Source: Bryobacterales bacterium
GTDB lineage: Bacteria > Acidobacteriota > Terriglobia > Bryobacterales > Bryobacteraceae
NCBI GenBank assembly: GCA_020847045.1
Contig: JADLCT010000018.1
Location: 1-64,000 of the forward strand
Reading direction: 5' to 3'
DNA: 64,000 nucleotides
The notes under the pieces were generated by a model, which was given only the letters and a program-made list of their open reading frames with translations, had not been told where the DNA came from and searched no databases. Positions 3,412 to 8,756 of this stretch are shown here, piece after piece. The translations under genes were made by a program, and so were the position numbers. Every line of letters starts with the position of its first letter. Within the stretch, counting starts at the first letter, position 1.

Positions 3412-4521
3412 CTAAGCTACGTCGAGGCGCACCCAGCCGGCCAGCGCGGCGGGTTGATCGTTGAGGAAGAGTACGCGGCGGGACTTGGGGAAGGGAAGTC
3501 CGCTCGCGATGGTGCGGCTGTAAGGCGGCAAAGCGCCCAGCAGCTTGCGGTAGTTCACGTCTTCCGGGTGCGGCCAGCCGGTTTTGCCGAAGAAGCCTCC
3601 GCCCCAGCCAAGGTTCAGCACGCACGAGGAGGGGCCGGCGGCTTGGATCTCCTCTTTCAACTTCCGCACGGAGGCCACCACGCCGTTTAATCCGCAGGCC
3701 GCGGCGAACTTTTCGTGCAGCGTAAGCGTGACGGCCGAGTAGGCGTTGGCGGCCGCGGCGAGCAGACGCGCATTGACGTTGGAGCGCACGCGGGCCAGTT
3801 CATCCCAGCGCCCGGTGAAGGCTGCGCCCGGCATGGCCATCTCGGCAAAGCGGGCCGAGGCGTCGGAGATGCGGTTGGGCTCGACGGTGTTGCGGCCCAC
3901 TCCTTTCCAGCCCCAGGCGATGCGGCCGCCCCGGTTGTCGAGCTTGGCCGTGCGCCACAGATACACCTGGAAACGGTCGCGCGCCACGGGCGCCGAGTCG
4001 CCGAGCGACAGCGCGCGCATCAGGTCGTGTCCGGGGTTGCCGAGCGACTGGCGTTCCAGTTCCTCGGCGGCCGTGCGGCGCAGCGTTCCTTCGTCGAAGC
4101 GGGCGGCGAGGCCTTCCAGATGCTTGGCCTGCCAGCGGGAGGCGAGCAGGGCCGTTCGCAACGCGCCTTTCAACGCGCTGGCCGGAAGATAAGGACCGCC
4201 TGTGTTGGTGGCGAACTCGGGGATGAACAGGTGGTCCGCCGGCATGCGGTTCCAGTGGCTGACGGCCGAGGGGTGTTCAAAAGCGATGCGGCGTCCGGCG
4301 AAGTTTTGGGCGAAGCCGCCCCAGGAGGAGAAATCCAGCCGGTCGGCGCGGCGGATCTGAACCAGGTAGTTGTCCAGGCGCGGTCCGCGAGCCAGTAATT
4401 TGAAGATGCGCGCCTGGTCGAGTACGTTCACCTGGTCGCGCCACACCATGTAGTCGATGGGCGAGAGGGCCTCTCCGGAACCAACGAGCGTGGGCGTAAG
4501 AACGGTAACGCGGTAGTTCAT
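3412..4521 (-). CDS. csm5: Type III-A CRISPR effector subunit Csm5
   Basis: 369 residues, RAMP (Cas7-like) fold. The N-terminus YRVTVLTPTLVGSGEALSP is the typical Csm5 first strand with its glycine motif, and PYLPASALKGALRTAL (about residues 108-123) is the RAMP signature loop. Csm5 caps the crRNA 3' end of the Csm complex. The ATG overlaps the csm4 stop (ATGA), so translation is probably coupled. It is the last gene of the operon and meets a beta-propeller gene head-on 5 bases further. Confidence 0.9.
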   Translation of the reverse strand: MNYRVTVLTPTLVGSGEALSPIDYMVWRDQVNVLDQARIFKLLARGPRLDNYLVQIRRADRLDFSSWGGFAQNFAGRRIAFEHPSAVSHWNRMPADHLFIPEFATNTGGPYLPASALKGALRTALLASRWQAKHLEGLAARFDEGTLRRTAAEELERQSLGNPGHDLMRALSLGDSAPVARDRFQVYLWRTAKLDNRGGRIAWGWKGVGRNTVEPNRISDASARFAEMAMPGAAFTGRWDELARVRSNVNARLLAAAANAYSAVTLTLHEKFAAACGLNGVVASVRKLKEEIQAAGPSSCVLNLGWGGGFFGKTGWPHPEDVNYRKLLGALPPYSRTIASGLPFPKSRRVLFLNDQPAALAGWVRLDVA

Positions 4522-5684
4522 CGGGCGGGCTCCGTGTCGAAGAAGGCGGGAACCAGTTCGGGTTCGGGCTCGGTGTCCGGCAGCGGTTCGGACGCAGGTT
4601 CGGGCGCAGGAGCGGGCTCTGCCGCGGACAGGGGCTCTGCCGCGGGCAGCGGCTCCTGTGCGATGAACGGCGCTGACGGGTGCGGATGCGTCTGGCCGGG
4701 CAGCGGCAGCGCGACGGCAAAGCCGCTGCGATAGACGGGGTGCGGGTGGCCCGCGGGCGTGACATCGGCGGCCTGGCCAACCGGGGCCGAGGCCGAGGCC
4801 AGCACGCTGCCTTCGGCGATCATGCCGATGGCGGGCTTCAGCGCGCCTGTGACGGTGCGGCCGGCGCGGGGCGCCAGCGAGTAGTTGCCCGCGGTCCAGT
4901 CGATGGCGTCGGAGGCCGAGGCGTGGCACAACGAGAGCAGCCACCAGTGGCGCGAGGTTTCCGGCGCCGGCTGCGCGCCGGGCAGCAGCAGAGAAGCGAG
5001 ATCGCCAAACTGGAAGCGAATCGCGGCCGCGTGTCCCCAGCCGCGCGAACGCTCGCCGCCGAGGCCGGTATCGCTGAGCAGGCGGAAGGCCGCTTCCAGC
5101 TTGGGACGCCAGGTGGCGGCGGCTTCGGCGCCGGCAAACACGGCAGCGCACCAGTAGCCGGCGTTCGGGGCGAATTCCAGGCAGGCGGTTCGGTGCGGAG
5201 CGGCGGCGCCGGTAAGCCTGTCCACGGCGGCCGCGGCCCGCAGAGCATAGCGGAAGGGACCGGCGTGGCCGGGGCGTCCGCTGCGCGGCACCAGGCACTG
5301 GCTCATGCCATCCACCTCCCAACTGTCCTCGCGCAAAGGTGGGCCGTTGAGCAGCGAGGCCACCACGCGCGTGGGCACAAACCGGGCGCCGGAGGCGCGC
5401 AGGCGTCCGGAAAGCTGGGGCGGCCACAACGTCCTGGGCGGCGGCACATACAGGTCGTCGCGCAGGTAGGGGAAAAGCGATGTGAGCCGGACGGCGGGCT
5501 CGGCGGCGCGGGCCGTCGCCTCCAGCCAGGGCCCGGCCTCATCCAACTGGTTCAGCGCACCGGTGAGGGCCGCAAACAGCGTGTCGCTGTGACACACCGG
5601 GTCGACACGGTCGCGCGAGCCCGTGTGCGGGCCGTTGCGCCATGGGCCGGCGGGCGTGATGCGGACAAGCAGAGCGAGCGGCAT
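4518..5684 (-). CDS. csm4: Type III-A CRISPR effector subunit Csm4 with acidic C-terminal tail
   Basis: 388 residues from the ATG at 5684; the open frame continues upstream, but MPLALLVRITPAGPW fits the Csm4 N-terminus. Family marks: CHSDTLFAALTGAL (about residues 30-43), SLFPYLRDDLYVPPP (about 69-83) and the glycine-rich GLGGERSRGWG loop. Csm4 (Cas5-like) binds the crRNA 5' handle and contacts Cas10. The last ~55 residues are an add-on: a low-complexity, strongly acidic Pro/Glu/Ala tail (AEPAPAPEPASEP and similar) with almost no basic residue, which I would not expect in Csm4. It starts 13 bases after csm3 ends. Confidence 0.9.
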   Translation of the reverse strand: MPLALLVRITPAGPWRNGPHTGSRDRVDPVCHSDTLFAALTGALNQLDEAGPWLEATARAAEPAVRLTSLFPYLRDDLYVPPPRTLWPPQLSGRLRASGARFVPTRVVASLLNGPPLREDSWEVDGMSQCLVPRSGRPGHAGPFRYALRAAAAVDRLTGAAAPHRTACLEFAPNAGYWCAAVFAGAEAAATWRPKLEAAFRLLSDTGLGGERSRGWGHAAAIRFQFGDLASLLLPGAQPAPETSRHWWLLSLCHASASDAIDWTAGNYSLAPRAGRTVTGALKPAIGMIAEGSVLASASAPVGQAADVTPAGHPHPVYRSGFAVALPLPGQTHPHPSAPFIAQEPLPAAEPLSAAEPAPAPEPASEPLPDTEPEPELVPAFFDTEPAR

Positions 5685-5697
5685 TGCGTGAGGCGTG

Positions 5698-6531
5698 TTA
5701 GCTGAGCTGCGCGGCGAAAGCGCCGCCGTTAGCCAGGGCGAGAATACCATCCGTGCCGGCAGAGGCGGCCAACTCCACCTCGGCGGCGCCGGTGGCGTAG
5801 TAGCCGCGGCCGCGCCAGGCGGCGCGCAGGTTGGCAAAGCGGATGCGGCCGGAGCCGCGCGAGCCGCCGCCGCCGAGAGAGTCGTCTTCCAGCAGGCGGA
5901 GACCCTCGGCCAGCCGGGCCACCAGCGCCTTGTCCTCCTCGCAGAGAATGTCCACCACCATGCGCACGCGGAAGCGGGCGCCGGCAGGAACGCGTTCGAG
6001 CGTGCGCGGGTTTACCTGCGAAGTAAGCCGGTCGATGGCGTTTTCGCTTTTCACCTCGGTGATCTCGTCGTCGAGATTTTCGCGCATCTGCGGCGTGATG
6101 GAGTCCAGATCGAGCGGCGCGTCATAGACGGTCAGGCGCGCGGGCGTGGCCTGTGCGCCATCGACTGGCTCGCCCGAGACACGCTCCATCCGGCCCGGAT
6201 TGCGTCCGAACAGCAGGCAGATCTCGTCGTCAGGCCGGTCGCTTTGATGAATGCGCACCTCCTGGCCGCGGCGGCGCGACAGGTAGACCAGCTCTTCGGG
6301 CGACAGGACGCCGCTGGAGTGTTCCAGCAGGGCGCGCAGGCGGCCGCGCAGCGAACTGCCGGGAACGTAGGGGCGGCCGAAGCTGTCCTTTACCACGGGA
6401 TTGTCGGCGCCGCCGATTTCGAGCGAGCCTTTGCCGGCGCCGATGTGGAGCCCTGTTTCACAATGCAGCTCGCCTTCCAGGATGAGCTTGCCGATCAGTT
6501 TCAGATTGGTTTGTGCGGTATGAGCGCTCAT
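5698..6531 (-). CDS. csm3: Type III-A CRISPR effector subunit Csm3 (target-RNA nuclease)
   Basis: 277 residues from the ATG at 6531, chosen because GAGGAC lies at SD distance; an in-frame upstream ATG would overlap csm2. Csm3 (Cas7) forms the backbone on crRNA and cuts target RNA every six bases. D43 in GADNPVVKDS aligns with the catalytic Asp of Csm3, followed by RPYVPGSSLRGRLRALLE (RAMP signature). The C-terminal glycine-rich loop is LGGGGSRGSGRI (219-230). The active-site residue is intact, so RNase activity is predicted. It lies 19 bases after csm2. Confidence 0.93.
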   Translation of the reverse strand: MSAHTAQTNLKLIGKLILEGELHCETGLHIGAGKGSLEIGGADNPVVKDSFGRPYVPGSSLRGRLRALLEHSSGVLSPEELVYLSRRRGQEVRIHQSDRPDDEICLLFGRNPGRMERVSGEPVDGAQATPARLTVYDAPLDLDSITPQMRENLDDEITEVKSENAIDRLTSQVNPRTLERVPAGARFRVRMVVDILCEEDKALVARLAEGLRLLEDDSLGGGGSRGSGRIRFANLRAAWRGRGYYATGAAEVELAASAGTDGILALANGGAFAAQLS

Positions 6532-6550: not shown

Positions 6551-7333
6551 CTACTCGTTGTAGGCGATGATGGCTTCAAACAGGTCGCGGAAGCGTTCGT
6601 AGCCGCGCGCCTCGTTCTTGCGTGTGACGGCGAGCAGCAGCTTTTCGAGCGGATCGAGTGAACGCAGCGAATGGCGCGCGATGGTGTAGGCCAGACGCGC
6701 GCGCAGCATGACGAAGTTGTGCTGGCGGTCGGCGTCGGCCGTGCGCGTGGCGCGGCGGACGGCGTTGTAGAAACGGCGCAGTTGGGAACGCGTGCCGGAA
6801 TCGAGATCGCGCATGCGGGCCACCACGGCGTGCGCGGCGTTGTCCAGATAGAGCGGGTCGGCGATCAGCTTCTCGATGTCAATTTCCAGCGGGCCGTCGG
6901 GACGGCCGCCACCACGGCGGTCGTCGCGGCGTCCGCCCTCGGGGCGGGGACCGCGGCCTTCTCCGCGCGGGCCATCAGGACGTGGGCCACGGCCTTCGCC
7001 GCGTCCGCCTTCGCCGCGTCCGCCTTCACGGGAACCTCCTCCGGTCTGGCCGTCCTGCCGGGGAGGACGCTCGCCTTTGGGCGGGCGCTCGCCACGGGGA
7101 GGACGCTCACCGCGAGGCGGACGGTCGCCACGTGGGGCCTGCTGGCCAGAAGCCTGTTGCGCGGCTTCCGCCACGGGTTCAGTTGGCGCGGTGGTTGCCG
7201 GGGCGGGGGCGGTTTCGGGAGCGGACGCCGGCGCCGGTGCTTCCGCCGTGTGCGGAGCCACCGGCGCGGCGGCGGATTCGGGCGCGGCCTCGACAGCGGG
7301 CGCCTGTTGCAGATCCTGTTCCTGATCAGACAT
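6551..7333 (-). CDS. csm2: Csm2 small subunit with long disordered N-terminal extension
   Basis: 260 residues from the ATG at 7333, which overlaps the cas10 stop by 8 bases. Residues ~148-260 are an ordinary Csm2 helical domain (SQLRRFYNAVRRA, then a second helix set ending RFRDLFEAIIAYNE); normal Csm2 is about 120-150 residues in total. Before it come two low-complexity parts: residues 1-66, Ala/Pro/Glu-rich, and 67-147, Arg/Gly/Pro-rich with four tandem RPPRGE-type hexapeptides and EGGRGEG/GRGPRP blocks resembling RGG RNA-binding tails. The reading frame is continuous with the Csm2 domain and no other start with a good SD lies before it, so I take it as real. Its function is unknown. Confidence 0.88.
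   Translation of the reverse strand: MSDQEQDLQQAPAVEAAPESAAAPVAPHTAEAPAPASAPETAPAPATTAPTEPVAEAAQQASGQQAPRGDRPPRGERPPRGERPPKGERPPRQDGQTGGGSREGGRGEGGRGEGRGPRPDGPRGEGRGPRPEGGRRDDRRGGGRPDGPLEIDIEKLIADPLYLDNAAHAVVARMRDLDSGTRSQLRRFYNAVRRATRTADADRQHNFVMLRARLAYTIARHSLRSLDPLEKLLLAVTRKNEARGYERFRDLFEAIIAYNE
7055..7135 (-). repeat. 18-base tandem repeat coding for RPPRGE hexapeptides in csm2
   Basis: Four imperfect copies of an 18-base unit, encoding RPPRGE, RPPRGE, RPPKGE and RPPRQD. The differences are mainly at third codon positions, meaning the peptide is kept while the DNA has drifted. Such tracts can change copy number by slippage; because the unit is a multiple of three, the csm2 frame would be kept. 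Confidence 0.75.
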
Positions 7334-8756
7334 GAGTTTCAGCCTCGATGGAGAGACGGGTCCATTCGACCGCCACGCGGCCGGCAGGACGCAATCGTAC
7401 GTGTTGTGCGCTGCCGCCAATCAGTTCTTGAGTAACCGAGTTGCGGAGCTTTTCATATTCGCGGCCCGGGCGGGCGCCAAGCGCCAGGCCGATGCGGCGG
7501 TGGTATCGCCAGGGGCGGCCTGTGGGCGATGGCGCGCCTGCGGGTGCGGCGGCGTTGAGCTTCTCACGGTAAAAGCCGGTGAATTCGGTGAGAAACGCCG
7601 GCGGGCAGCGGAAGTCGCGGATCAGGCGCAGCAGGTCATCGCGCAAACTGGCGGCGCGGTACACCTGCTTCCAGTCGACGGTACGGCCGAAGAGGTGGAA
7701 GCAATCCTTTTCCTCACTCTTCGCGCTTTCCAACAGGCGGCCCGCCTCTTCGTAGACATAGGGGAAGGGGGTATCTTCACCGGGGGCCAGCGCGAGGGCC
7801 ATGGTGATGGTCTTGGCCTCAGGACCATCCAGAAACTTCAGATGCTCTCCGGCAAACAGATGAAACAGCCGGTGGAATTCGGTGGCCAGCCGGAGCAAGG
7901 CGTCCCAAGAGCCGTAGACGGCAAAGTCGTCGCCGCCTGTGTACAAGATGGTGACCTTGCGCCACAGCTCGGGCAGAGCATTACAGGCGAGCTCGATTTC
8001 GCCGGCGAAAAACTGCTTCATCACGCGCGACAGCCGAAGATGTTCCTCGATGTCGGCGCAGCTCCGCAAGCGGACGCCAAAGTTGTCCACATCGCCGCGC
8101 AGCACGCCCCAGCGCTGGCTGCCCTCGGCGCGCGCGGCAAGTTCGGAGGGCGTCGCCGGTTGTGCTCCCGCGTCATCCAGCGCGGTGTGGCGCGCCAGGT
8201 GAATGTCGTCGGGACCGGCGCCGAGACGCCAGTTGTGGCGGCCGCCCTCCACCATCACCACGCCCGGCTGGCCGGGCGACCACGAAGCCGTGACGGCCTC
8301 GCGGAAGGCTTCCGAGAAACCGGCGAAATCCTGTTCGTCCCCCGCCGCGGGCAGTGGTGCGGCGAGCGGTGTACCCAGCGCTCGTCCGAGCCCGGAAAAG
8401 AGCCGCTTGCGGACGATCGTCCAGTCGCCCAGGTTTTCCGTCCATGCCCAGACCAAGCGAAGACGGCCGCCGCTGCGGGTGTCGATATCAGACTGCGCGG
8501 CGGCAAGAATCTCTTCGGCCTGCACGCGGGACTCCTCGGGCAGAACGATCAGGAACTGGCCGCCGCCGCTGGAGCCCAATAAAAGCGAGGACAATCCGAG
8601 TTCGGCCAGGATGCCGCGCGGCAGAACCTCGGTGAGCAGGGCGGCCCACTGGGAGCGTCCGCCGAGCACGCCGGCGGAGTTTGCCTCCGGAGCGGGCGAC
8701 AGCAGGAACTCCTCCAGTCCGGAGAGCTTACCGAGTAGGAAAATCTGAACGGACAT
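7326..8756 (-). CDS. cas10: Compact Cas10 (Csm1) without HD domain, GGDD present
   Basis: 476 residues from the ATG at 8756, against about 750-850 for usual Csm1. Residues 1-~130 look like the first Palm domain (LGGRSQW at 31-37, SSGGGQFLIVLP at 62-73). Residues ~214-360 are the second Palm with the metal/NTP site: DVDNFG (222-227) and YTGGDDFAVYG (272-282). A helical C-terminal part follows (KDCFHLFG at 350-357 marks the boundary). There is no N-terminal HD nuclease domain and no Cys cluster between the Palms. Cyclic oligoadenylate synthesis is predicted, HD DNase is not. First gene of the csm operon. An in-frame start at 8855 is possible but adds only 33 non-HD residues. Confidence 0.92.
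   Translation of the reverse strand: MSVQIFLLGKLSGLEEFLLSPAPEANSAGVLGGRSQWAALLTEVLPRGILAELGLSSLLLGSSGGGQFLIVLPEESRVQAEEILAAAQSDIDTRSGGRLRLVWAWTENLGDWTIVRKRLFSGLGRALGTPLAAPLPAAGDEQDFAGFSEAFREAVTASWSPGQPGVVMVEGGRHNWRLGAGPDDIHLARHTALDDAGAQPATPSELAARAEGSQRWGVLRGDVDNFGVRLRSCADIEEHLRLSRVMKQFFAGEIELACNALPELWRKVTILYTGGDDFAVYGSWDALLRLATEFHRLFHLFAGEHLKFLDGPEAKTITMALALAPGEDTPFPYVYEEAGRLLESAKSEEKDCFHLFGRTVDWKQVYRAASLRDDLLRLIRDFRCPPAFLTEFTGFYREKLNAAAPAGAPSPTGRPWRYHRRIGLALGARPGREYEKLRNSVTQELIGGSAQHVRLRPAGRVAVEWTRLSIEAETHV

Follow-up and report, generated by a model that had tools for sequence, protein, structure and literature searches.

An Arg/Gly-rich, predicted-disordered N-terminal tail on the type III-A Csm2 of Bryobacteraceae

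In the Csm complex of L. lactis, multiple Csm2 subunits build a ridge along which the target RNA runs, apo particles lose Csm2, and Arg48 of Csm2 is required for cleavage (PMC8964682). N-terminally His-tagged L. lactis Csm2 gives an active complex (PMC8964682), and the N-terminus of Csm2 therefore tolerates additions. The protein described here resembles the type III-A Csm2 (Cas11) of L. lactis, S. epidermidis, and E. italicus in its helical core fold, its operon position, the arginine of the SQxR motif, and its matches to PF03750 and TIGR01870. It has 260 residues because of an N-terminal tail, whereas the solved bacterial Csm2 chains that it matched have 107–139. A Gly/Arg-rich N-terminal tail also precedes the core in the Csm2 of Thermococcus onnurineus (PDB 6mur, 6o7h; about 187 aa; GGYGRGGYGRQDRP), but that tail is short, with about 20 residues and several tyrosines, whereas the tail here spans 147 residues without any aromatic one. 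Arg/Gly richness and predicted disorder are shared with RGG/RG-box RNA-binding tails, from which the Csm2 tail differs in having one RGG, no aromatics, about 17% Asp/Glu in its RG part, and a near-neutral mixed charge. For the locus as a whole, a described counterpart is the type III-A system of the Mycobacterium tuberculosis complex, a lineage-wide conserved Csm operon with few signs of ongoing adaptation, for which non-immune roles have been proposed (PMC13334790). The Bryobacteraceae operon shares the lineage-wide occurrence and the scarcity of signs of ongoing adaptation. The M. tuberculosis complex locus, however, contains cas1, cas2, cas6, csm6, and arrays (PMC13334790), none of which is linked to the Bryobacteraceae operon, and the Bryobacteraceae system further differs in its HD-less Cas10 and in being conserved over a whole family.

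The window, a stretch of 64,000 nucleotides from a Bryobacterales bacterium (family Bryobacteraceae; assembly GCA_020847045.1, contig JADLCT010000018.1), carries a csm operon in the order cas10-csm2-csm3-csm4-csm5 (Table 1). The csm2 gene lies between cas10 and csm3, and its start codon overlaps the stop codon of cas10 (ATGTCTGA). Residues 165–258 match the Pfam family Csm2_III-A (PF03750) with an E-value of 6e-10 and 40.4 bits against a cut-off of 24.8, and residues 181–259 match TIGR01870 with 40.3 bits against a cut-off of 30.6. AlphaFold2 predicted six helices for residues 153–259 (pLDDT 89–96) and coil throughout residues 1–146 (pLDDT about 46–63), and Foldseek returned Csm2 chains as the top matches of the model (probability 1.0, E 0.015, TMt about 0.6). 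These boundaries agree with the first-pass annotation, in which the helical domain had been limited to residues ~148–260, behind 147 disordered residues. Arg186, in the SQ[ILV]R motif, is invariant among 38 homologues and aligns with the arginine of the QVR motif of T. onnurineus Csm2 (6o7h). By this motif only, R186 would be the counterpart of Arg48 in L. lactis Csm2. The 260-residue protein is thus confirmed as a genuine type III-A Csm2 with a predicted-disordered N-terminal tail.

Table 1. Positions of the csm genes and of the segments of Csm2 within the window
Feature	Position (strand)	Extent	Remarks
cas10/csm1	7326..8756 (-)	476 aa	GGDD present, HD domain absent
csm2	6551..7333 (-); ATG at 7333, stop ends at 6551	260 aa	PF03750 and TIGR01870 above cut-offs
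Csm2 extension, part 1	7136..7333 (-)	residues 1-66	Ala/Pro/Glu/Gln-rich; coil, low pLDDT; only in longer-tailed homologues
Csm2 extension, part 2	6893..7135 (-)	residues 67-147	Arg/Gly/Pro-rich; 6-residue RPP[RK](G)E tandem repeat; tail type of all readable family homologues
Csm2 helical core	6554..6892 (-)	residues 148-260	invariant Arg186 in SQLR
csm3	5698..6531 (-)	277 aa	Asp43 in GGADNPV
csm4	4518..5684 (-)	388 aa	60-aa acidic Pro/Ala/Glu-rich C-terminal tail, about 4521-4700, net -10
csm5	3412..4521 (-)	369 aa	

The other subunits fit a type III-A effector with a short Cas10. The cyclase motif GGDDFAV of Cas10 is conserved, while a search for an HD domain in this protein gave no match; the protein is much shorter than the matched Csm1 of about 720 residues, and its relatives are equally short. 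Type III systems without the HD domain are known, and its absence was therefore not treated as excluding type III-A. Asp43 of Csm3 is conserved in more than 95% of the sequences, at what is presumably the position of the catalytic Asp33 of S. thermophilus Csm3. Leaving aside the Csm4 of the window, roughly 17 of 92 distinct copies in the family have acidic Pro/Ala/Glu-rich tails or inserts (L041, L043, L051, L058, L109, L130, and others). In the same genomes, median identity was 85% for the Csm2 core, about 73–74% for the housekeeping control MTAP, 74% for Csm3, and 52% for Cas10. Distances correlated moderately with those of MTAP, a single housekeeping protein (r 0.46–0.52 for Cas10, 0.27–0.42 for the Csm2 core), which is consistent with largely vertical descent without proving it. 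Apart from the five csm genes, no gene stood out convincingly as a conserved neighbour in the flanks, inspected over up to about 10 kb. Neither cas1 nor cas6 was linked to the operon, and in the examined loci no CRISPR array lay less than about 10 kb away. Direct-repeat matches in several flanks (L035, L043, L048, and others) were considered as arrays and set aside as they look like tandem or coding repeats.

The tail consists of two segments of different composition, as the first-pass annotation had described them. Residues 1–66 contain 33% Ala, 17% Pro, 12% Gln, and 11% Glu with a net charge of -9, and residues 67–147 contain 32% Gly, 26% Arg, 19% Pro, 10% Glu, and 7% Asp with a net charge of +8; over the whole tail, 15% of the residues are basic and 15% acidic, and the net charge is 0. 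Four RPP units do exist where four RPPRGE hexapeptides had been reported, but the exact hexapeptide occurs only twice (at 71 and 77), the others being RPPKGE (83) and RPPRQD (89); the GRGEG and GRGPRP blocks are present as claimed, at 105 and 110 and at 114 and 126, respectively. Aromatic residues are nearly absent from the homologous tails as well, with 53 Phe, Trp, or Tyr among 6879 tail residues of 93 homologues. RPP[RK] occurs in 50 of these 93 tails, against 4.3 expected from composition shuffles, although the homologues are related and the counts are not independent; in short-tailed homologues it starts mostly near residues 11–20. Charges are more evenly mixed than in composition shuffles in 91 of 91 homologues (mean z -1.7; again not independent). 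The Csm2 tail can be described as a polyampholyte of near-neutral, evenly mixed charge in which aromatics hardly occur. Arg also prevails over Lys in the core (15% versus 3%), and the preference for Arg in the tail may stem from genomic GC content.

The tail is not a strain-specific oddity, an explanation rejected by the family-wide survey. In a first sample, 33 of 37 family genomes had the Csm2 core, and none of the 24 genomes from elsewhere in the order or class did. A scan of the Bryobacteraceae located this Csm2 in 212 of 237 genomes and 69 of 76 genera, nearly always as a single copy, and in 142 of the 148 genomes with at least 90% completeness and low contamination. Named records with this Csm2 were mostly labelled as Bryobacteraceae, Bryobacterales, or less resolved Acidobacteriota; one was labelled Acidimicrobiia, apparently in error. 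Csm2 is missing from some family genomes at least 90% complete (G005, G009, G524, G525), of which G009 has its own Cas6 with arrays. We inspected about 93 distinct proteins of the family, and all readable copies bear a tail rich in R/G/P/D/E, about 30–158 residues long; the measured extensions ranged from 29 to 158 with a median of 57, the value of 29 coming from a copy cut at a contig end. Three copies could not be read cleanly owing to frame problems (L058, L076, L135), and L122 lacks the exact YLDN landmark, yet is tailed. The R/G/P/D/E-rich segment adjoining the core is general, and the Ala/Pro/Glu block preceding it belongs to longer-tailed homologues. Across the wider Acidobacteriota, Csm2 is patchy: it was found in 16 genomes outside the family in a sample of 396 genomes that included three of the family. 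The Csm2 proteins from these 16 are mostly of normal length, and the readable ones have tails of some 15–40 polar residues. The survey of Csm2 families, Acidobacteriota included, that the first-pass annotation had proposed thus places the tail family-wide, and its remark that no comparable Csm2 was known needs qualification: all readable Bryobacteraceae copies are tailed, and shorter tails occur in T. onnurineus and other Acidobacteriota. Short Csm2 tails are not new; a long tail kept across a family appears to be. Our literature search, which did not cover preprints, found no published work on disordered Csm2 extensions.

The same annotation had named two observations that would count against the extension: a translation start near residue 145, and homologues with the same start but no tail. 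At the sequence level, no plausible start was found near residue 145: the tail contains no ATG, its only other possible starts are GTG codons at residues 25 and 54, and in 63 of the 93 homologues the tail has no possible start codon of any kind. Homologues with a cas10-adjacent start also carry the extension. Relative to the nearest relative (G001), dN/dS was 0.28 for residues 1–66, 0.08 for residues 67–147, 0.15 across the whole extension, and 0.02 for the core; being plain Nei-Gojobori counts on alignments of low-complexity sequence, these values are to be read as well below 1 rather than as precise. Further pairs gave finite extension values of 0–0.36 and three undefined ones; about half of these pairs had an extension dS of at least 1, and the zero came from 39 codons. 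We reject an annotation artefact, with the true start near residue 145 and the tail untranslated, because selection acts on the amino acids of the tail and the tail offers hardly any start codon; nothing was found in favour of such an artefact. Neutral drift or slippage of low-complexity sequence, with no function for the tail, could in a GC-rich genome account for the tandem repeats in the DNA, the amino acids with GC-rich codons (Gly, Ala, Arg, Pro), and the variable length. Such drift is nevertheless very improbable given that dN/dS is well below 1 where dS is unsaturated, that every readable family copy is tailed, and that motif and charge patterning exceed what composition predicts. Because of the overlapping start, the lack of an internal ATG, and dN/dS below 1, we take the Csm2 tail to be translated and selectively constrained.

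What a constrained tail might do is a matter of weighing its charge pattern, its motif, and its variability. RNA binding or assembly by the predicted-disordered tail is possible, as the annotation had supposed, but with about equal numbers of acidic and basic residues the tail is weaker in this respect than a typical cationic RNA-binding tail. Its suggested likeness to RGG tails that drive condensates did not hold up, with one RGG, scarce aromatics, and balanced charge; the lack of aromatics and the even mixing of charges speak against a condensate-forming RGG/aromatic tail. We tentatively favour, at a probability of about 0.42, reading the tail as a multivalent, flexible tether on the ridge of the Csm complex where target RNA runs. 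Each complex would display several extended RG/RP-rich arms, its Csm2 copies being arranged along the side of the Csm filament where target RNA lies; the arms could engage target RNA and neighbouring subunits through weak, multivalent contacts. Such contacts might steady the loosely held Csm2 ridge and speed up the capture of long transcripts, while the evenly mixed charge would prevent condensation and leave the arms soluble and extended. The conserved folded domains, together with crRNA from a Cas6 acting in trans, would remain necessary for cleaving RNA and for synthesizing cyclic oligoadenylate. Somewhat unlikely, in our judgement, is an entropic bristle or solubility spacer that keeps Csm complexes apart and soluble without any specific ligand: a polyampholyte of this kind, nearly devoid of aliphatic as well as aromatic residues and keeping its composition while its length drifts freely, would suit that role, but the enrichment of RPP[RK] and the low dN/dS of the RG part suggest that more than bulk composition is kept. 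That enrichment, with starts mostly near residues 11–20 in short-tailed homologues, could instead mark a short linear motif (RPPRE/REGR-like) that docks some partner, for example the acidic Csm4 tail, the trans Cas6, or a housekeeping RNase; Cas6 is unlinked and needs recruiting in trans, and a subset of genomes, including that of the window, have acidic Csm4 tails or inserts. The motif is, however, inexact in about half of the homologues, and most Csm4 proteins have no acidic tail, yet all readable Csm2 copies have an RG-rich one. Tail length varies fivefold among family homologues and about half lack an exact RPP[RK]; no precise docking site therefore seems to be kept, and we consider a docking motif unlikely.

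The novelty lies in a lineage-wide variant of a known subunit. A type III small subunit can evidently carry a long, predicted-disordered tail kept by selection, which raises the testable question of what role disordered tails play on CRISPR effector complexes. A more consequential lead than the tail is the near-universal Csm operon without HD domain or linked array: in one soil-bacterial family the Csm effector behaves like a core set of genes, whereas Cas1 and arrays are gained and lost, and why the lineage keeps such an operon almost universally can likewise be tested. It is conceivable, if quite doubtful, that the Bryobacteraceae Csm complex is a core and possibly housekeeping RNA-handling machine, without linked arrays, adaptation genes, or HD domain, whose Csm2 tails would provide multivalent, perhaps guide-independent contact with cellular RNA.

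The remaining CRISPR components are scattered over the genomes. A search of 24 family genomes found an unlinked Cas6 in 22 of them, the exceptions being G013 and G018, and all 20 Cas6 proteins retrieved with their surroundings are homologous to that of the window's genome. The latter is a solitary gene (L180, 9841–10713, on G000:C54) with homologues family-wide; only in G009 does an array lie alongside. A search for Csx1_CARF, the one CARF family covered, found none in 38 genomes although its control worked; in the Csm6_HEPN search, the control itself gave no match. Cas1 is patchy, in 9 of 24 family genomes plus a fragment in the window's genome. By ORFs read by eye, a Cas9-like protein adjoins Cas1 in G000:C91 (L258, 269–3505, 1078 aa) and in G001:C48 (L259, 1289–4504, 1071 aa), the Cas1 gene in G000 being truncated at the end of the contig. 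A generic repeat-tag pattern revealed a patchy distribution of arrays over the family genomes, and the count of 0 in G000–G002 comes from one generic tag in gapped assemblies with the cas9-cas1 cluster at a contig edge; for the window's genome, examined by pattern searches, this count does not establish that arrays are absent. Chosen closed or near-complete family genomes ranged from hundreds of repeats to none detectable, and several of their arrays had type I-like repeats. The shared repeat motif CTGANNNAGAAGSGATTGARAC was found in only 3 of 24 family genomes searched. Repeats ending in it occur in arrays of G003:C130, G012:C33, G021:C270, and G044:C8, with a variant in G028:C3 and G029:C19, and possibly form a small covarying hairpin before the 8-nt tag.
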